Assembly (NCBI GenBank): GCA_021791615.1
Contig: JAJYWG010000409.1
Location: 1-13,076 of the forward strand
Length of the DNA stretch: 13,076 bases
Source: Actinomycetes bacterium
Lineage (GTDB): Bacteria > Actinomycetota > Acidimicrobiia > Acidimicrobiales > RAAP-2
Reading direction: 5' to 3'
Positions 2,176 through 12,922 of this stretch are shown in pieces. Position 1 is the first letter of the stretch. Every line of letters begins with the position of its first letter. Both the position numbers and the translations under genes were made by a program. The notes under the pieces are model-generated. The model saw nothing but the letters and a program-made list of their open reading frames with translations, had not been told where the DNA came from and made no database searches.

Positions 2176-3906
2176 CTACTGCGCTGAGTGCGTCGCAGCA
2201 GCCCAGCACTCGGCGAAGCCGCCGGCAACCGGTGGCGACGGGAAGTGCAGACAGCGCTCGCCGGCGCGCGTCATCGCAGATTGGACGACATCGCGAGCGC
2301 GGTCCGTGCTGTCGGCGGGAGCCGCGACGAGGATCTCGTCGTGGATTGTCCCGACGATGCGCGCGTGCGGGATCTGTTCACGCAGGTCCCGCTCCACGGT
2401 GACGAGGGCTTCTTTGACCATGTCGGCCGCAGTCGCCTGGATTGGGGTGTTGGCCACCGACAACCGGCTCGACCCGTGCCGGCGGACAAGCCGCCGACGA
2501 TGCCGCGTCCGCACCTCGCCGACCCCATCAGCCCGAACGAGCAAGCCCGTCCCTGCGTCAGGAGCCGCCTCGATGCGTACCCGCGAGCCGAACGTCATTG
2601 CCTGCGGGTACGTCGCCTGCAGAGAACGACGCAGCACCCGCGCCGTCTCCACCGTGATACCGCATGCCTCCGCGAGCCCAGAAGCCTGCGAGCCGTAGCT
2701 CACCGACAGCAGCGCCCGCTTTGCAACACCACGCTCAACGCCGACCGCAGTGGCGATCCGCTCGTACGGATCGCCACGAGCGAGGTCGTCGGTGAGCGCG
2801 CCATCACCCGACACCGCCGCGAGCACGTAGAGCTCTTGGCGACCGTAGTCAAACGAGCCGAACAGCAGCCCGTCCTTGGCGACGACAGCTTCGCGGAGCT
2901 CGTGCGGCATACCCTGGACGTTCGGGTCATGGGACGTCACTCGACCCGTGACGGTGCCGAGCACCGACCACGATGGCCGAAGTGCACCGTCTCGAGGCAC
3001 CGCGGCCCATTGGGCGAGGTTGCGCCCCGACCTGTAAGCCTGGAGAGCTGCAATCTCGGGATGGGCGATTGACTCGAATGCCTTGGCAGCAGTCGATGAG
3101 ATCGCTGTGCCGATATGCTCCGAGAGGCGTCCAGCAACGTCTTGTGGGCTCGATGCGTTGAACCCGACGTAGCGTCCTGAATGGTCCTGGACGACGCCGA
3201 GAGCGTCGCACAGGGTCCGCTCTGCGACGACAGCAGCATCGAAGCCACCGCCACACAGCTCGCGCCACCGTCGCCGGTCGATCCGCAGCCCGTCGGGCTC
3301 CATACGACCGAAGACGAGTGCGACAGCAGATTCAAGACGCGCTGCCCGCTCGAGACCAGCCAGCTCCGCCTGAGCCAACAGGGGCTCGCCGACGCGACGA
3401 ACGTGACGAACATGCAGTGCCGCGGCATGCGCCTCAGATGCGTTGAGTCGACCATGACGGCCGCTGATGAGCAACGGATCGACACAGTCACCCTCGTCCA
3501 AAAGCACCCGGACCAGCTCGCCGAGTTCGAGTCCACCTAACCCGAGGTCGACAAAGTGCGCCGGCTCGAGACCAGCAAGCAGCAGCCGTGCAACGGCAAG
3601 GCCATCACACACTCCGGCGAGAATGACGCCGTAGCGAGCGACCAACCCCGCGAGCTGCTGGCCGTTGTAGATGAGCTTGGTCCTGCGTCGATCCTCCAGT
3701 ACGGATCGTATCGAGGCCTCTCGAAGAGGCCAGATGGATGCGTCGACGACGAACTCGTCGGTTGGGCCGGCAATCTGCCAGCTGAGCAACCGACCAGTCG
3801 TCGGAGAGGTCTCGACAGCAAAGCCGAGACGCTCGTTCATGCACAGAAACCTGCGCAGTAACGTCGCTTCAGAGGAGATCGCTCCCCGAACGTGGTAGAT
3901 GGTCAT
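2176..3906 (-). CDS. family A DNA polymerase, no 5' nuclease domain, 3'-5' exonuclease probably inactive
   Basis: About 576 aa from the ATG at 3906; a GTG at 3912 is in frame but lies only 2 nt from the same AGG. The C-terminal half has the family A motifs: TGRVTSHDPNVQGMP near 320; motif A GSFDYGRQELYVLA with catalytic Asp about 353 and steric-gate Glu about 358; motif B RGVAKRALLSVSYG near 392-405; motif C TIHDE near 520-524, followed by a normal C-terminus. In motif B the Phe/Tyr that usually precedes the conserved Gly (Phe762 in E. coli Pol I) is Leu. The N-terminal region keeps the outline of a DEDD exonuclease but not its acids: exo I DxE reads AVE, and the exo II NxxxD position reads YNGQQL. 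There is no FEN-like domain. Actinobacteria carry PolA-like proteins of this size annotated as bifunctional exonuclease/polymerase; a plasmid or phage replicative enzyme is the alternative. Polymerase activity looks intact. The gene ends in its own terminator. Confidence 0.9.
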   Translation of the reverse strand: MTIYHVRGAISSEATLLRRFLCMNERLGFAVETSPTTGRLLSWQIAGPTDEFVVDASIWPLREASIRSVLEDRRRTKLIYNGQQLAGLVARYGVILAGVCDGLAVARLLLAGLEPAHFVDLGLGGLELGELVRVLLDEGDCVDPLLISGRHGRLNASEAHAAALHVRHVRRVGEPLLAQAELAGLERAARLESAVALVFGRMEPDGLRIDRRRWRELCGGGFDAAVVAERTLCDALGVVQDHSGRYVGFNASSPQDVAGRLSEHIGTAISSTAAKAFESIAHPEIAALQAYRSGRNLAQWAAVPRDGALRPSWSVLGTVTGRVTSHDPNVQGMPHELREAVVAKDGLLFGSFDYGRQELYVLAAVSGDGALTDDLARGDPYERIATAVGVERGVAKRALLSVSYGSQASGLAEACGITVETARVLRRSLQATYPQAMTFGSRVRIEAAPDAGTGLLVRADGVGEVRTRHRRRLVRRHGSSRLSVANTPIQATAADMVKEALVTVERDLREQIPHARIVGTIHDEILVAAPADSTDRARDVVQSAMTRAGERCLHFPSPPVAGGFAECWAAATHSAQ

Positions 3907-4020
3907 GTGCACAACCTGGCCGGGCAGTCGAACTGTGCAGCACGACGACCGCGACCAGACACGAGCCCGAGCCCCCGCCCTCGTCTCCTACCAAGCAGGA
4001 GCCGAGCACCGAGCCGTTGC

Positions 4021-4914: not shown

Positions 4915-5679
4915 TCAGGCGACGAGAAGATCCCGTAACCGACCGAGCGCCTTCGCCTGGATCTGGCAAACGCGCGACGCTGTGACACCGAGGATCTCCC
5001 CCACTTCGGCCTGGGTGTGACCGTCGAAGAAGCAGAGCTTGACCACGGTGCGCCACCGCTCCGGAAGCTCCTCGACGGCCCGCCGGACCGCCGTCTCGCC
5101 GTCGCGACGGACCAATTCATCCTCGGCCGACTCCTCGTCGTTCCCGATCAGCAGCGACCCGCTTCCGGGAATTGCGTCAAGACGAAGAACCTGGGAGCTC
5201 GCCACGGCAGCGAGCACCTCTGCAGGGTTCCTCACACCGAGGTCCGAGAGCACCTCTGCCCGATGAGGCATTCGACCAAGCGCGCCAACGAGCCGCTCCT
5301 CGCTCTCGGCGTAGCTGCGGACCTCGCGCCGGACACGCCGCGGCAGCCAGTCGAGCCGACGGAGCTCGTCGTAGACCGCGCCACGGATGCGCTTGGTCGC
5401 GAAACGCGGGAAGCTCGACACGGTCGAGCCCGGCGAGAACCGCGTGATCGCATCCATCAGGCCGAGCAGGCCGTAGCTACGGAGGTCCTCTACCTCCCAG
5501 TACGCATGGATCGATCGCGGAAGGCGATCGACAGCGCTCGCCACGAGAGACCCGTAGAACACGACGACGGCGTTGCGCGACTCGACCGATCCCTCGGTCC
5601 AGTAGGACGCCCAGAGCGCCTCGGGATCGCCACCGATGTGAGTGAGATGTGGCTGTCGGAAGCCAGATGTGGCGGACAT
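4915..5679 (-). CDS. WhiG/FliA-family RNA polymerase sigma factor
   Basis: About 254 aa from the ATG at 5679; a GTG at 5685 is an equally possible start, and neither has a clear ribosome binding site. All regions of the FliA/WhiG group are visible: region 2.1-2.2 (NAVVVFYGSLVASAVDRLP, then EVEDLRSYGLLGLMDAITRF); region 2.3-2.4 (FPRFATKRIRGAVYDELRR followed by LDWLPRRVRREVR, the diagnostic DWxPRxVR); region 3 (LVGALGRMPHRAEVLSDLGV); region 4.1-4.2 (EELPERWRTVVKLCFFDGHT, then QAEVGEILGVTASRVCQIQA). The length is normal. Members direct RNA polymerase to flagellar, sporulation or other specialised promoters in bacteria and actinobacteria. No flagellar or sporulation gene is nearby here; the neighbours are a hypothetical protein, a DNA polymerase and two diverged sigma-like proteins, so it may serve this gene block. 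No anti-sigma factor was recognised. Confidence 0.93.
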   Translation of the reverse strand: MSATSGFRQPHLTHIGGDPEALWASYWTEGSVESRNAVVVFYGSLVASAVDRLPRSIHAYWEVEDLRSYGLLGLMDAITRFSPGSTVSSFPRFATKRIRGAVYDELRRLDWLPRRVRREVRSYAESEERLVGALGRMPHRAEVLSDLGVRNPAEVLAAVASSQVLRLDAIPGSGSLLIGNDEESAEDELVRRDGETAVRRAVEELPERWRTVVKLCFFDGHTQAEVGEILGVTASRVCQIQAKALGRLRDLLVA

Positions 5680-5716
5680 AACCACTGATCGTGGTCACTC
5701 GGACACGCCACTGTCG

Positions 5717-6131: not shown

Positions 6132-7031
6132 ATGACGTACAAGGTGCGTTTGTCAGAAGCTGGCGTACACTTGTTCGAGCGCGTTTCCGGCCTGAACGTC
6201 CTACTCGACGAGGTGGACGTGCCTGCAGGCCAGGTTTCGCAGGCTCCGCGATACTTGTCGGTCGCGTTGACGAACGCCTGCGAACTCCGCTGCACCTACT
6301 GCTACGCGCCCAAGCATGCCGCCGCGCTCGACGTGGACCGCGTGGTCGCCTGGGCAGTCGAGCTCGACGGCGCCGGGTGCCTCGGAATTGGGTTCGGCGG
6401 CGGCGAGCCCACCGCGCACCCGCGGTTCGCAGATCTCTGCGTTCAGATCGCCGAGTCGACGTCGATGGCGGTGACCTTCACGACGCATGGGCATCGGCTC
6501 ACCCCTAATCTCGCCGAGAGTCTGCGAGGGTCTGTGCACTTCGCGCGCCTGTCCGTCGACGGGATCGGTGCCACCTACGAACGGCTCCGACGCCGGCCAT
6601 TTGCGGCGGTCCTTGCCGCGGCCGCCGCGCTTCGTTCGGTGGCTCCGATCGGCATCAACACCGTCGTGAACTCCGACACGATCGGCGACCTCGATTCCAT
6701 CGCCGAGTTCGCCGCCGACGTTGGTGCATCAGAGCTCTTGCTCCTGCCAGAGCAGCCGACCGCGGCCACGCTCGGTATCTCGGATGCTGACGCGAAGCGC
6801 CTGGTTCGTTGGCTACGAACTGCCAGGACCCGGGTGCGGCTCGCGATCTCACGTTCCGGGCTCGAGGCCTCGCTGCCGGCCGTCGAGGCCATCCCTGGTG
6901 AACGTCCTCTGGATGCCCACCTGCACGTCGACGCGACCGGTTTCCTCCGTCCCAACGCGTACGCGCCCGTGGGATTGCCGATCGAGGGCTCCATCCTGGA
7001 CGCCGTTCGAGCTCTGAGGGAGGCAGCGTGA
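6132..7031 (+). CDS. radical SAM enzyme, first gene of putative defence operon
   Basis: About 299 aa from the ATG at 6132, which has GAGG at 6126-6129 (only 2 nt away); GTG 6099 and ATG 6102 are in-frame alternatives adding 10-11 residues. The CX3CX2C motif ACELRCTYCY (Cys 50, 54, 57) binds the radical SAM [4Fe-4S] cluster, and GFGGGEP (about 87-93) is the SAM-binding GGE motif. Later strands fit the partial TIM barrel (HFARLSVDG, GINTVVNS, ELLLLPEQ). The C-terminus (HVDATGFLRPNAYAPVGLPI) has the spacing of a SPASM/twitch tail but no cysteines, so I see only one cluster. Known family chemistry: reductive SAM cleavage to a 5'-deoxyadenosyl radical. The substrate is unknown. The next gene overlaps it by 4 nt (GTGA), indicating coupling to the 137-aa protein and, behind it, the large STAND protein. 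No RiPP precursor was found. It is not viperin-like (CNYxCxFC absent) and not obviously QueE. Confidence 0.9.
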   Translation: MTYKVRLSEAGVHLFERVSGLNVLLDEVDVPAGQVSQAPRYLSVALTNACELRCTYCYAPKHAAALDVDRVVAWAVELDGAGCLGIGFGGGEPTAHPRFADLCVQIAESTSMAVTFTTHGHRLTPNLAESLRGSVHFARLSVDGIGATYERLRRRPFAAVLAAAAALRSVAPIGINTVVNSDTIGDLDSIAEFAADVGASELLLLPEQPTAATLGISDADAKRLVRWLRTARTRVRLAISRSGLEASLPAVEAIPGERPLDAHLHVDATGFLRPNAYAPVGLPIEGSILDAVRALREAA

Positions 7032-7441
7032 GGATCTGGCACAGCTACGGCTCCGAGCACTCCATGGACCTTGTCCTGATCGGCAGATTCGAGACGGTCT
7101 CCGGTGCGGAGGCGGCGATCGAGCGGATGGAGGCCCTGAAGGCCCTCGCCGAGGCCGAGTGGTCAGACGACGACTGGCGGCGCCATGACGACCGCATGCC
7201 TGAAACGCTCACCAATGAGCTGATCAAGCTGAAGCTTTACGAGATGGGGCGGTCCGACGTCGACATCTACGCCTACGATTACTCGATCGAACGCGACGGA
7301 TCTACCGTCCGTGTCCAGACCGAGGAATCCGAAGTCCAAGGCTTCCTCAAAGTGCTTCTCCACCTTGGTGCGCGCGTGGAGGTGTTCTCGCGCCACGACT
7401 GGGACGAGGACGGGACGCCGCGGACCGACGCAGGCAGCTGA
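7028..7441 (+). CDS. small conserved-looking partner protein (YGSEHSM motif)
   Basis: 137 aa. The GTG at 7028 overlaps the radical SAM stop codon (GTGA) and has GGGAGG (7018-7023) 4 nt upstream, so start and coupling are well supported. The N-terminus MRIWHSYGSEHSMDLVLIGRF has an unusual motif at residues 7-13 followed by a beta strand. A helix (GAEAAIERMEALKALAEAEW), an acidic Trp-rich linker, a central helix (LTNELIKLKLYEM) and a second beta-alpha-beta half (STVRVQTEESEVQGFLKVLL, then HLGARVEVFSRHDW) suggest two ferredoxin-like halves. From memory the N-terminus resembles the uncharacterised DUF6375 family; this is unverified. Function is unknown: it could be the substrate or a partner of the radical SAM enzyme, or a regulator of the large nuclease/NTPase whose GTG starts 8 nt beyond its stop codon. 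Confidence 0.88.
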   Translation: MRIWHSYGSEHSMDLVLIGRFETVSGAEAAIERMEALKALAEAEWSDDDWRRHDDRMPETLTNELIKLKLYEMGRSDVDIYAYDYSIERDGSTVRVQTEESEVQGFLKVLLHLGARVEVFSRHDWDEDGTPRTDAGS

Positions 7442-7448
7442 GGCAGCG

Positions 7449-10400
7449 GTGGACCTGACGGAGCTGGAGCACCTGCAGGGCGCCGCGGACCAAAACTTCG
7501 AGGCACTCACGCGGGCGATTGTGTCGCGCCGCTATGGCGCGCTGGGCACTCTTCGTGAGCGGCGCAATCAGCCAGGTGTCGAGTTCTACCTGCGGGTCGA
7601 GCACCCCGGTGCGCTCGGGGATCCGCCCCGTGTGTGGGGGTGGTCGTGCAAATGGTTCATCCTCGGCCGGAACAACGAGCTCACCCGCGACCAGCGCGAC
7701 CAGATCGAGGTCTCCCTCGGCAAGGCGATCGAGTACGTCGACGGGCTGACCGACTTCGTGCTCTGCCTTCCCCAGCGTCCAGCGAAGAAGGACGAGGAAT
7801 GGATCGACGCCCTCGGCCCAGCCAGAGACATCTCGACGAAACTGTGGGCGGCAGAGAACTTCGACGCGGAGCTCTCGGGATTCGACGAACTCCGCGCCAC
7901 CTTCTTCGGGGAGCTCATCCTGTCCCCGGAAGCGCTCGCGAACGCTCATGAGCGCTCCGTCGCCCCGGTCAAGGCCCGATGGCTACAACCGCTGCACACC
8001 ACGAATCACGTGGAGCATCGGCTCGAGCGGGCCCTCCTGCGCCGTGAGCCGTTCGACTGGCTCGATGAGCGTGTCGACGCCACCGCCGTCCGTACGGGGG
8101 CGCTCCGTGATGCGCTGGCCGACATCGATGACGGCGCCGCTCGTGCACGTGCCGAGGACGTCGCTGCGGATCTGGACCGATTCGTCGCCGACCTGAGGGC
8201 GATCGTCGACGCCGGACGAAACCTTCGGCCGATGGAGGTTCGTGAGCGCCTCGCCGACCAGCAGCCACCAACCACGTCGCCACGCAAGCTCCGAGCCCTC
8301 GTGCTTGAGCTGAGGAAGCAGCGCCTGCCGGCGGCCCTTGCCGTCACCGGCCTCAGCGCTGAAATCCGCGACGTTGTCTGGTGGCTGCAGGACTGGCACG
8401 CGGACGTACAGGCCCCGCTGATCGCGGTCGTCGCAGCGGCGGGGCTGGGCAAGACGCACCTTGCTGCCCAGCTAACTGCTGGGGCAGACGGACCGACTTC
8501 CGGAGTCTTCATCCAGGGTGGGCGACTGCGAGGCGGTGGCAGCCTAGATGATCTGGCGCGACGGATTCCCGGGCTGAAGATAGAGCGCTTCGAGCATCTC
8601 CTCGAAGCGCTCAACTCAGCCGGCGCCCGGGCCGGCGCCCGGATCCCGCTGGTCATCGACGGCTTGAACGAGGCCGAGCGGCCCTCGGAGTGGCGTCCGC
8701 TGCTCGATGAGCTAATGCCGGCACTTGGTGACTACCCGAACGTGCTGATGATCGTCACCGTCCGCGAGGCGCTTGCTGCTCGCGCCGTCCCGGGCGCAGC
8801 CGCGAAGGTGGATCTCGAGTGGTACCAGTCCGAGGCCAACGACATCGTCGCCGCCTACTTCGACCACTACCTGATCAGGCCCGCTGGCGCCTGGCTGCCG
8901 ACCGAGATGTTCCACAACCCGCTCTTCGTCCGCATGTATTGCGAAGCCGCGAATCCACGTCACCAGGAGCCGGTCGGTGTAGAGGCATTGCCAACCTCGC
9001 TCGTCGGTGTGTTCGAGCTGTACCGCGACGTGTTCAGCCAGCGCCTGGCCGAGGACCCCGCCCGTGAACCAGTGCCCGCTGACCAGATCAAGCGGCGCCT
9101 CGCCACGTTCGCGTTGAAGATGTGGTCTCGAGGAGTCCGTCGGCTCCCGTCCGATGATGCGAAGGCGATCCTCGATGCTGGTGAGACGAACTGGGACGAG
9201 AGCCTGTTCCGACGGCTCGAAGAGGAAGGGGTTCTCTTCCGCGAGGAGGTAGACGGTGCTGACGACACCGAGACTGGGGTCGTGTTCGACCGCTTCGCCG
9301 GGTACCTGACCGCTGACGCGCTCCTTGTGCGCATGGCCTACACCGAGGTCCAGGAACGGCTCGCGGAAGCGACCCTTTGGGATTCCCTACTCGGCGGCGA
9401 TAGCCATCCGTTGGGCGAGGACGTGGCCATTAGCCTGATCGGCCTGCTGCCCCGCCGGTTCGGCGCGCACCAGCACCTCTGGTGCCTCGCCCCGGCCGAG
9501 TACCGATTGCGGGTGCTCGCCCAGGAGCTCGAATCGGAGTCCGAGTTCCTCGATGACTGCACCGTCGACGAGCTCGCTACGTTGATCGTCACCGGGAATT
9601 GGAAGGCCACTGGTCCTCGCGGGTACGGACGCCCGCACCCATTCGACCGGCTGTGGGAGGTCCGCGCTTCCCCGGCACACCGTCTGAACGCCGACTTCCT
9701 CGACCGGGTCCTTCGAATGCTACCTCTCGCTGAGCGCGACACCAAGTGGACCGAATGGGTCCGCCATCGCGCCAGAGACCTACTCCTGGACGACCTAGAG
9801 AAGCTGATCAAGTATTGGACCGAGAACATGGATCGCGTCGAGGTGGACGACCTGGACGCGCTCGCGATCGCGTGGCTACTAACGTCCACTAATGAGGAGG
9901 TACGCGATCTAGCGGCCAAGGCGCTGCAGCGGTACGGTCGGCCGGAGCCGAAGCGCCTGTTCGACCTCGCTAGCGGCATGCTCGATGTTGACGACCCGTA
10001 CGTTGTTGAGCGCGTCGTCGGTGCCGCATTCGGTGCCGCCAGCGCACACCAAATGCCCGATCCCGGTGGGCCCTTCGAGCACGCCCTCGCTCGGTGGCTC
10101 GTCGAGTTGTGCGATCATTTCCTCGACGGACCCCCGACCTACCATGAGCTGCTGCGTAGCTATATACGTGCAACCTTCGAGCTCGCTGGGACCCTCCACC
10201 CCGGTGCGGTACCTGCCGGTGTCGAACCGTTCGCGCTGGCGTTCGCAGCTGTGCTGCCTGCGCCGATGATGGCTGACCACGACCCGAACGCCGAGGAGTG
10301 CGACAGCACCTTCGGCGTGGATTTCGAGAACTACGTGATCGGGACGGCCATCAACGGCCGAGAGAACTATGACTTCGATCACCCTGGCTTCCGTCGCGCC

Positions 10401-11471
10401 CGCGGCGAGGTCATGGCCCGCGTCTGGGATCTGGGGTGGCGTGCCGCGCTGTTCCGCGACGTCGACCGGGCAATTGCCGAAGCCGCCAGCCGATCCGGGC
10501 CAGAGCGCGCAAACGTGGAGCGCTACGGAAAGAAGTACGGGTGGATCGCCTACTACGAGCTGATCGGCCGGCTCGCTGACGCTGGACAGAGCCGGGACCG
10601 GTGGGTTGGAGGCGGGCGAAACGTGACGCCCGACATCGACCCATCCTTCCCCGATGAGCCGCCGGCGGCGCCCGTCCGCCTTCCGGAGTGGGCACCTGCC
10701 AGTCCAACGGAAGACGAGGTGTGGCTCCGGACCGGTGCCGTGAACGTGCCGGCCGAGTTGTGGTCACCTGAGGAGATCCAGGGCGTCACCGGCGGGTGGC
10801 TGCTGGTCGAGGGGTTCCTGCAGCATCGGCGTGATGGGCGCCGGGTGTCGGGATTCTTCCACACCCTCTTGCTGGACTCGGCCGATGTGGATGCCGCGCT
10901 CGAGCTGATCCACGGGCTCGAGTACCTCGGCAACCGCTTCTTCCCCGAGCTCCCGAAGGTTCGAGACGTGTTCGCCGGGGAGGCGCCTTGGAGCCCCAGG
11001 TTCGAGGTGCGCTTCGACGATGACGACGGTGAGGCCCACTCCCGTCCCGCGCTGCGTCATGACTGGCGCGACGAGGGCATCGAGCTCGGCCAGGTCGCAG
11101 TAGAGCTGTCGACAGGTGAACGGGGGTCACCGACTGTGCTGAAGCGGTCCTATGACGTGCCGTCGTTCGAGTTCGCCGCCCGATTCGGATTGCGTCAGCT
11201 CCCGGGCACGTTGGATCTCGTTGGTTTCGACGGGGTCCGTGCCTCGGCCACCTTCCGCATAGAGGAATCTTGGCGCGGACAGCTGCTGTTCCTTCGCCGG
11301 GAATTAGTCGTCGACTTCGCCGCCAATCGCCGGGTTGTGCAGGTTGGCTGGGGCGAGCGCGAGGTAACCGTCGAAACGAGGTCCATGCCCGCCTGGGTCC
11401 GGGAGGTCCACCAGAGCTACGAAAACGTCTGGCGCGAGATCCGAATGCTCGACGTGGTCTCACGGACCTAA
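7449..11471 (+). CDS. nuclease-STAND/NACHT NTPase with C-terminal sensor module, Avs-like
   Basis: 1340 aa from the GTG at 7449, with GAGG (7440-7443) 5 nt upstream inside the preceding stop region; the ATG at 7311 would overlap the small gene by 131 bp. Residues about 10-130 look like a PD-(D/E)xK nuclease fold: E18 in the first helix, GVEFYL with E45, then WGWSCKWF with K68, then RDQIEVSLGKAIEYVDGLTD. The Glu/Gln usually two residues before the Lys is Ser66. The STAND/NACHT core follows: Walker A AAAGLGKT (329-336), Walker B LVIDGLNEAE (Asp404), sensor Arg439 in IVTVRE, FHNPLFVRMYCEA (about 488) and VFDRFAGYL (about 612). Residues about 700-950 are helical with HEAT-like pieces (LAIAWLLTSTNEEVRDLAAK). 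RYGKKYGWIAYYEL (1025) begins a conserved-looking segment, then a beta-rich C-terminal module. Known of Avs proteins: the C-terminus senses a phage protein, oligomerises the NTPase and activates the N-terminal nuclease. That role here is inferred from architecture. Confidence 0.88.
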   Translation: MDLTELEHLQGAADQNFEALTRAIVSRRYGALGTLRERRNQPGVEFYLRVEHPGALGDPPRVWGWSCKWFILGRNNELTRDQRDQIEVSLGKAIEYVDGLTDFVLCLPQRPAKKDEEWIDALGPARDISTKLWAAENFDAELSGFDELRATFFGELILSPEALANAHERSVAPVKARWLQPLHTTNHVEHRLERALLRREPFDWLDERVDATAVRTGALRDALADIDDGAARARAEDVAADLDRFVADLRAIVDAGRNLRPMEVRERLADQQPPTTSPRKLRALVLELRKQRLPAALAVTGLSAEIRDVVWWLQDWHADVQAPLIAVVAAAGLGKTHLAAQLTAGADGPTSGVFIQGGRLRGGGSLDDLARRIPGLKIERFEHLLEALNSAGARAGARIPLVIDGLNEAERPSEWRPLLDELMPALGDYPNVLMIVTVREALAARAVPGAAAKVDLEWYQSEANDIVAAYFDHYLIRPAGAWLPTEMFHNPLFVRMYCEAANPRHQEPVGVEALPTSLVGVFELYRDVFSQRLAEDPAREPVPADQIKRRLATFALKMWSRGVRRLPSDDAKAILDAGETNWDESLFRRLEEEGVLFREEVDGADDTETGVVFDRFAGYLTADALLVRMAYTEVQERLAEATLWDSLLGGDSHPLGEDVAISLIGLLPRRFGAHQHLWCLAPAEYRLRVLAQELESESEFLDDCTVDELATLIVTGNWKATGPRGYGRPHPFDRLWEVRASPAHRLNADFLDRVLRMLPLAERDTKWTEWVRHRARDLLLDDLEKLIKYWTENMDRVEVDDLDALAIAWLLTSTNEEVRDLAAKALQRYGRPEPKRLFDLASGMLDVDDPYVVERVVGAAFGAASAHQMPDPGGPFEHALARWLVELCDHFLDGPPTYHELLRSYIRATFELAGTLHPGAVPAGVEPFALAFAAVLPAPMMADHDPNAEECDSTFGVDFENYVIGTAINGRENYDFDHPGFRRARGEVMARVWDLGWRAALFRDVDRAIAEAASRSGPERANVERYGKKYGWIAYYELIGRLADAGQSRDRWVGGGRNVTPDIDPSFPDEPPAAPVRLPEWAPASPTEDEVWLRTGAVNVPAELWSPEEIQGVTGGWLLVEGFLQHRRDGRRVSGFFHTLLLDSADVDAALELIHGLEYLGNRFFPELPKVRDVFAGEAPWSPRFEVRFDDDDGEAHSRPALRHDWRDEGIELGQVAVELSTGERGSPTVLKRSYDVPSFEFAARFGLRQLPGTLDLVGFDGVRASATFRIEESWRGQLLFLRRELVVDFAANRRVVQVGWGEREVTVETRSMPAWVREVHQSYENVWREIRMLDVVSRT

Positions 11472-11722: not shown

Positions 11723-12922
11723 ATGCCACGGGTCGGTCAACTCAAGACTTCGGACGCTGAGCGCCTCACGGATCGCATCGCGCTCGGCGTGCTGACGGCG
11801 ACGTTCCCGCCGTCGCTCGTCGACGAGGTGCTCGAGGCGTCGAACCGCGTTGAGAAACGCCACCGACTGTTGCCGGCGCGCGTCGTCGTCTACTTCGTCC
11901 TCGCGATGTGCTTGTGGGCGGACGAGGAGTACGTCGAGGTCGCCCGACTGCTGGTCGGCGGGTTGAAAACGATGGCCCGGTGGCGGGGGTCGTGGCAGGT
12001 TCCGACCTCGGGAGCGATCACCCAGGCGCGTGCCCGTCTCGGTCCCGACGCGCTGAAGCTGCTCTTCGAGCGGGTGGCCGCACCGACGGCGACCGAGGGA
12101 TCTGCCGGCTCGTGGTGGCGCGGTCACCGGCTCGTCGCGATCGACGGGACGGTCTTCGACCTGCCTGACACCACCGAGAACGCTGCTCACTTCGGCCGGC
12201 CGGGGTCCGGCCGCGGCGACGGTGCGTTCCCCCAAGCCCGGGTCGCCGCGCTCGCCGAGTGCGGCACGCACGCCATCATCGGGGTGGAGATCGGACCGTG
12301 CACGACCGGAGAGACGACGCTCGCCCGCAAGCTCTTCTCGTTGCTTCGGCCGGGAATGCTCCTCCTTGTCGACCGGGGCTTCTCCGGCTACGAGCTGTGG
12401 GGGCAAGCGGCGGTGACTAAAGCGGCACTGTGCTGGCGGACGAGGTCGAACACGATCCTTCCGGTGACGACGACCCTCCCGGACGGTTCTTATCTGTCGG
12501 TCCTTCGGCCGCCGCAGGGCAACGGTGGGGGCCCGGTCACCGTCCGGGTCATCGAGTACACCCTCACCCACCCATCACGGGACCCCGACGAGGGTCCGAT
12601 CCGGCTCGTCACCACTCTGCTCGACCCGGCCGAGGCGCCCGCCCTCGAGCTCGCCGCACTCTACGGCGAGCGGTGGGAGGAAGAGAACGCCTTCGACGAG
12701 CTGAAGACCCACCAGCGCGGAGCAGGGCGGGTGCTGCGGTCGAAGTCGCCGGCGATGGTCACCCAGGAGATCTACGCCCACATGCTCGTCTACTTCGCGA
12801 TCCGGACGCTCATCAACCAGGCCGCCGAGCCCGAGGAGCTCGACCCGGACCGGGTCTCGTTCATCGCCTCGCTCCGCGTCGTCCGCCGCCTGGTCACCGA
12901 CCAGTCGGCCTTTTCCCCCTGA
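11723..12922 (+). CDS. IS4-family transposase, C-terminus probably frameshifted
   Basis: 399 aa from the ATG at 11723, without a clear ribosome binding site, as is common for transposases. The N-terminal region (residues 10-120: LTDRIALGVLTATFPPSLVD, then RLLPARVVVYFVLAMCLW) is the IS4 N-terminal domain. The catalytic triad is complete: D141 in VAIDGT, D217 in LLLVDRGF, and E321 within YGERWEEENAFDELK, which fits the IS4 signature Y-(2)-R-(3)-E-(6)-K. The frame stops at 12922 just after VTDQSAFSP. The reading continues convincingly in the +1 frame, so the product lacks about 50 or more C-terminal residues of its relatives. The catalytic core is intact, so activity of the truncated form is uncertain. 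Confidence 0.92.
   Translation: MPRVGQLKTSDAERLTDRIALGVLTATFPPSLVDEVLEASNRVEKRHRLLPARVVVYFVLAMCLWADEEYVEVARLLVGGLKTMARWRGSWQVPTSGAITQARARLGPDALKLLFERVAAPTATEGSAGSWWRGHRLVAIDGTVFDLPDTTENAAHFGRPGSGRGDGAFPQARVAALAECGTHAIIGVEIGPCTTGETTLARKLFSLLRPGMLLLVDRGFSGYELWGQAAVTKAALCWRTRSNTILPVTTTLPDGSYLSVLRPPQGNGGGPVTVRVIEYTLTHPSRDPDEGPIRLVTTLLDPAEAPALELAALYGERWEEENAFDELKTHQRGAGRVLRSKSPAMVTQEIYAHMLVYFAIRTLINQAAEPEELDPDRVSFIASLRVVRRLVTDQSAFSP

Follow-up and report, generated by a model that had tools for sequence, protein, structure and literature searches.

A radical SAM enzyme, a DUF6375 protein, and an Avs-like nuclease-STAND protein form a recurrent bacterial gene trio, a candidate undescribed defence system

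The stretch of DNA analyzed here (the window) comprises 13,076 nucleotides (nt) of contig JAJYWG010000409.1 from the Actinomycetes bacterium assembly GCA_021791615.1, and it contains three consecutive forward-strand genes at positions 6132 to 11471. The first gene (6132..7031) encodes a radical S-adenosylmethionine (SAM) enzyme of 299 amino acids, the second (7028..7441) a DUF6375 protein of 137 amino acids, and the third (7449..11471) a nuclease-STAND protein of 1340 amino acids. A preliminary description had proposed these genes as a translationally coupled unit and a candidate undescribed defence system. The junctions were as it reported: the frames lie at these coordinates, the first two genes overlap by 4 nt, and the second and third are separated by 7 nt. 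The start codons at 6132 and 7449 were found at the same place as the starts of homologues. A Shine-Dalgarno site had been assigned to each gene, of which the one for DUF6375 (GGGAGG) was clear, while the radical SAM and STAND genes showed only GAGG.

The third protein is predicted, by comparison with its homologues, to combine a PD-(D/E)XK nuclease fold with conserved STAND NTPase motifs. The nuclease domain occupies residues 1-154 (7449..7910), where the motif GVE45...W-x-C-K68 was identified, and it is of the Avs4 kind. In an alignment of 72 STAND sequences, the residues G332, G334, and K335 of Walker A (GxGK, residues 332-335; 8442..8453) were conserved at 1.00, and those of Walker B (DGLNE, residues 404-408; 8658..8672) at 0.99-1.00. 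The PADLOC Avs2 model PDLC02164 matched with an E-value of 9.6e-107 and a best stretch of residues 2-916, covering the nuclease and the core, and it scored 283-397 bits in the eight trio-family STAND members scanned. The core also matched the Avs2 structure 9o4e in PDB (E 1.9e-65, profile 311-966). These matches in the window protein stop near residues 916-966, while in relatives they extend further (to residue 1202 in locus L073). The region beyond, from about residue 917 to 1340 (10197..11468), is a putative sensor and includes a RYGKKY motif at residues 1025-1030, which was conserved at 0.99-1.00 in the 72 sequences. Hence, the nuclease-STAND-sensor layout of Avs proteins claimed in the preliminary description was recovered for the N-terminal effector and the STAND NTPase, while the C-terminal sensor was assigned by position only.

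Avs1-4 are described as nuclease STAND receptors that kill upon sensing phage proteins, and Avs proteins as bacterial relatives of NLRs that sense phage proteins directly (PMC12931631). The trio protein resembles Avs2 in its STAND core, but it scored only 235.9 bits against the NCBIfam Avs2 model NF041813, for which the equivalog cut-off is 1000 bits, and it has two obligate partner genes. Avs2 works as a single gene. The trio also differs from Avs4 in having partner genes, and no PADLOC Avs4 model matched the window protein at an E-value of 0.1, while the Avs4 matches of its relatives were N-terminal only. The effector is recognisably Avs-like, and it is not new, since PADLOC labels it Avs2.

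The first protein matched the Pfam family Radical_SAM (E 4.5e-17). In an alignment of 75 sequences, from which one row with an internal stop was left out, the cysteines C50, C54, and C57 of its CX3CX2C iron-sulfur motif (residues 50-57; 6279..6302) were conserved at 0.99, and the GGGEP motif (residues 89-93) at 1.00. Past residue 103, no cysteine was conserved at 0.85 or above in these sequences, so that a SPASM-type auxiliary cluster is unlikely. Among solved structures in PDB, the best sequence matches of the core were SkfB and PqqE, both peptide-modifying, followed by cytosylglucuronate decarboxylase. Models of MoaA, mycofactocin maturase, and viperin matched with similar strength, all far under their cut-offs. 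The enzyme shares the CX3CX2C radical SAM core of SPASM peptide maturases such as SkfB and PqqE, but it lacks their conserved C-terminal cysteines, and its putative substrate is a folded protein of 137 amino acids with a tail instead of a short precursor. Similarly, the prokaryotic viperins (pVip) are alike in a CX3CX2C radical SAM core and an antiviral context, whereas the trio enzyme is paired with DUF6375 and STAND proteins and scored only 46.4 bits against the NCBIfam viperin model NF038283 (cut-off 180 bits), with weak PADLOC viperin matches (best 58.9 bits).

The second protein belongs to DUF6375, with a score of 199.2 bits against PF19902 (gathering score 27.5), and the corresponding proteins of five divergent trios scored 107-183 bits. 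An AlphaFold2 model from 73 sequences (predicted local distance difference test, pLDDT, 86) placed an alpha/beta domain of ferredoxin-like order at residues 15-121, and ferredoxin-fold chains were on top of the fold matches, weakly. The most conserved part of the protein was its N-terminal tail, residues 1-13 (7028..7066), with a weighted identity of 0.82 vs 0.53 for residues 14-121. Within this tail, M1, W4, E10, H11, and S12 were conserved at 1.00, the value for M1 being possibly inflated by the choice of start codons, and G8 at 0.97, while residues 1-5 and 8-10 had a pLDDT below 50. Such a conserved and apparently unstructured terminus, encoded beside a radical SAM gene, has the look of a modification substrate and could be one, or it could serve as a binding hook. 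No PADLOC model matched the protein, and no mention of DUF6375 was found in the literature searched. DUF6375 is a family without an assigned function, for which the trio supplies a clear hypothesis.

To survey the trio across bacteria, one genome per species was scanned with a STAND profile, which identified 153 relatives; the best 80, in 77 loci, were kept, and a scan of viral contigs added two loci for a total of 79. The three genes were found in the same order and on the same strand in 75 of the 79 loci, including one (L057) with a partial radical SAM gene, inside which the contig starts. The four exceptions (L044, L060, L076, and L079) are loci whose contig begins with the STAND or DUF6375 gene, so that upstream partners would fall outside it. 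Wherever a locus included enough upstream DNA, the partners were present (75 of 75). The overlap between the first two genes is exactly 4 nt long in 60 of the 75 trios, based on start codons chosen by script, and this shared layout indicates that the arrangement is not due to chance. Some of the 75 loci are close relatives and do not count as separate events. Judged by record titles, the trios represent about fourteen phylum-level groups, including Actinomycetota, Pseudomonadota, Bacillota, Bacteroidota, Cyanobacteriota, Planctomycetota, Verrucomicrobiota, Nitrospirota, and Gemmatimonadota, and a plasmid from Deinococcota raises the number to about fifteen.

Reverse searches yielded the same association. 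Among 392 Streptomyces genomes, the DUF6375 model matched in 12, the radical SAM protein (E 1e-25) in 12, and the STAND protein (E 1e-20) in 15; the first two sets were the identical 12 genomes, all within the 15, and the three genes were adjacent in 12 of 12. The extra STAND matches in G600 and G609 were distant and covered the STAND part only (29%). Another genome, G760, carries a 126-residue C-terminal STAND fragment at two places (C1 and C2, or L124 and L127), both without radical SAM or DUF6375 matches. In Pseudomonas (398 genomes), DUF6375 was found in three genomes, with the other two genes beside each. Among 72,556 plasmids, DUF6375 (E 1e-5) and the radical SAM protein (E 1e-30) were found together in 16 records and nowhere apart, and the STAND protein (E 1e-20) in 15 of these 16. 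Vibrio accounts for 12 of the 16. The sixteenth, the Deinococcus plasmid pDEIPE01, retains the radical SAM and DUF6375 genes; an IS3 insertion sequence (IS) starts where DUF6375 ends, and the 10 kb to each side are free of STAND matches. The sole plasmid STAND match outside a trio was a distant archaeal HNH-STAND protein (27% over residues 324-1093). The co-occurrence across phyla that the preliminary description had proposed as a check was thus observed in one fixed order, and STAND genes without the first two genes, which it had named as evidence to the contrary, were limited to distant relatives, one fragment, and loci truncated where a contig ends.

Broken copies were also encountered. The STAND match lies in two frames in two of the 12 Streptomyces genomes (G768 and G548), and in G774 (L108) the DUF6375 match is in two frames, split between residues 16 and 17, with the same appearance in L008. 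In addition, an IS3 is annotated inside the STAND match in two of the 15 plasmids (H46 and H47, both from Vibrio), the STAND match of the E. coli locus L094 changes frame near residue 1115, and the Halomonas locus L062 has an in-frame stop within the radical SAM match.

Among 65 trios, including the one in the window, the pairwise distances calculated for each of the three proteins were correlated with one another (0.89-0.94), with none of 1000 permutations as high; related sequences are non-independent, and the correlation therefore supports joint inheritance without measuring it. By sequence comparison, the trio is shown to be passed on, through inheritance and transfer, as a single unit. 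The E. coli loci L094 and L095 are 90-98% alike in the middle of the STAND protein but just 79-90% in the radical SAM protein, while the Xenorhabdus locus L072 and L094 are 86-96% alike in the radical SAM protein and about 66-80% in the STAND middle. Judged by these identities, the three trios are mosaic. Two contigs of Streptomyces sp. cf386 (L009 and L016) carry trios at equal locus coordinates with equal scores, and they are perhaps the terminal repeats of a linear replicon.

The genomic sites of the trio included several with known defence genes. The trio of L024 sits inside a BREX locus, flanked by PglXI and BrxHI; in L053, Dsr1 is downstream; and in L037, GajA is about 6 kb upstream. Flanking open reading frames (ORFs) were called at 35 loci (384 in total), and the 195 from 19 loci that were scanned with PADLOC gave 250 + 152 family matches at 1e-10. 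In comparison, 173 control ORFs from 16 stretches in nine of the genomes gave 83 + 37, where 24 of the 25 control matches listed among the 83 were Gabija models with one member each. Because such family counts are non-independent, and the families are known for the matches listed, the enrichment is suggestive. The proposed proximity to known defence genes applied to some neighbours (BREX, Dsr1, and Gabija), and the enrichment is relative to a crude control. In E. coli, the trio was found in 25 of 5,426 genomes and was chromosomal in all of the matches listed (20 of 25). Three inspected copies represented two sites, one by an integrase at tRNA-Phe and the other beside yeeN, upstream of tRNA-Asn. 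On cyanobacterial plasmids, the neighbours of the trio include TIR, macro, and DUF1156 proteins, and the plasmid of L083, which is related to H46 and H47, has predicted resistance genes directly downstream of the trio.

PADLOC labeled the STAND protein Avs2, gave only weak viperin matches for the radical SAM protein, and had no match for DUF6375. No description of a radical SAM enzyme in such a trio with an Avs, AVAST, NACHT, STAND, or NLR protein was found in the mainly open-access literature searched, in part among the matches listed. The FtsH-type vWA-MoxR ternary conflict systems (eLife 2020, PMC7159879) have a core of MoxR, vWA, and FtsH, and the available part of that source makes no mention of a STAND nuclease. 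The suggestion of an undescribed defence system is therefore supported for the trio, with the effector itself already labeled Avs2.

From this evidence, the trio is very probably a defence nuclease with obligate partners. A full mechanism, to which about an even chance is given, would be an Avs/NLR-like system acting against phages (mobile elements), in which a DUF6375 protein modified by the radical SAM enzyme controls the STAND protein. Upon infection, the STAND protein would oligomerise with ATP and the nuclease would cut DNA. Less surely, the radical SAM enzyme may put a change, such as a cross-link, on the flexible N-terminal tail of DUF6375. The modified protein would then bind the STAND protein, either keeping it silent until a phage disturbs the modification or completing its sensor. 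By analogy with Avs1-4, the output is most likely killing upon phage sensing. A narrower proposal, advanced only tentatively, is that the STAND protein reads the radical-made mark on the tail, so that an NLR-like nuclease would stand guard over a self-protein that has undergone chemical maturation. If so, the system would sense when SAM, iron-sulfur metabolism, or protein synthesis comes under attack, or the mark would be a built-in part of the sensor, and we know of no earlier immune receptor whose function requires post-translational modification by a radical SAM enzyme.

Several points weigh against the full mechanism. The likeness of the enzyme to peptide maturases is confined to the common core; MoaA tops its NCBIfam list, viperin models match about equally, and the small-molecule enzyme cytosylglucuronate decarboxylase is also in its PDB list. 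The low pLDDT of the tail may reflect missing partners instead of real flexibility, and the nuclease-motif residue K68 shows some variation among the 72 sequences. With respect to distribution, 77 of the 79 loci derive from the best of the 153 relatives, with more distant ones outside the counts, and many records are related, such as the 12 Vibrio plasmids among 16, and are not independent events. With respect to defence context, five of nine large trio neighbours, chosen by the authors, had no PADLOC match at 1e-30 (the other four did), and one stretch of the crude control itself carried Gabija genes.

In a different, rather unlikely explanation, the product of a viperin- or MoaA-like radical SAM enzyme during infection is a small molecule or nucleotide carrying a modification, and DUF6375, as a PII/CutA-like ferredoxin-fold protein, binds the product and switches the STAND protein on. 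Somewhat less likely still is a toxin-antitoxin-like arrangement without sensing, where the STAND nuclease is toxic alone and its partners only hold it off. The lack of a partnerless STAND gene where the upstream DNA was long enough to tell (75 loci) fits this arrangement, as does pDEIPE01 with its first two genes retained, an IS3 next to them, and the STAND gene gone; but a radical SAM enzyme would be an unusual antitoxin, and broken copies of all three genes exist with no clear asymmetry, although these were not rigorously counted. A role outside defence, as a nuclease regulated for housekeeping or developmental purposes, is improbable: the neighbours that could be named in the window, DNA polymerase and sigma factors, have no obvious tie to defence, but the trio is rare and patchy (12/392 Streptomyces, 3/398 Pseudomonas, and 25/5,426 E. 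coli genomes), occurs on plasmids and at tRNA-linked sites, and adjoins BREX, Dsr1, and Gabija genes at some loci. Finally, an ordinary Avs2 whose neighbours serve another role, which would suit an Avs2 label that covers the nuclease part too (E 9.6e-107, residues 2-916), is already hard to hold and the least probable reading, given co-occurrence in both directions, matched divergence of the three proteins, a gene order that stays constant and a 4-nt overlap that often recurs from phylum to phylum, and a score under the NCBIfam Avs2 cut-off.

That an Avs-like nuclease is accompanied by a small protein and a radical SAM enzyme wherever assessable, in about fifteen phylum-level groups with plasmids included, implies an added level of control through chemical modification, of which no description for the Avs class was found in the literature searched. 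The trio is also present in E. coli.

The surroundings of the trio in the window had been described as an IS and an accessory-like left block. The IS was confirmed as an IS4-family transposase gene at 11723-12922 (+), 251 nt past the STAND stop codon, with 231.9 bits against a cut-off of 115, and no terminal-repeat-like pair was seen for this element in a repeat search. The left block was ambiguous, with a phage-like DNA polymerase and sigma factors. It includes a DNA polymerase A-like protein with phage affinity at 2179-3912 (-) (phrog_17, E 5.6e-51) and, in the same antisense block, a FliA/WhiG-like sigma factor at 4918-5685.
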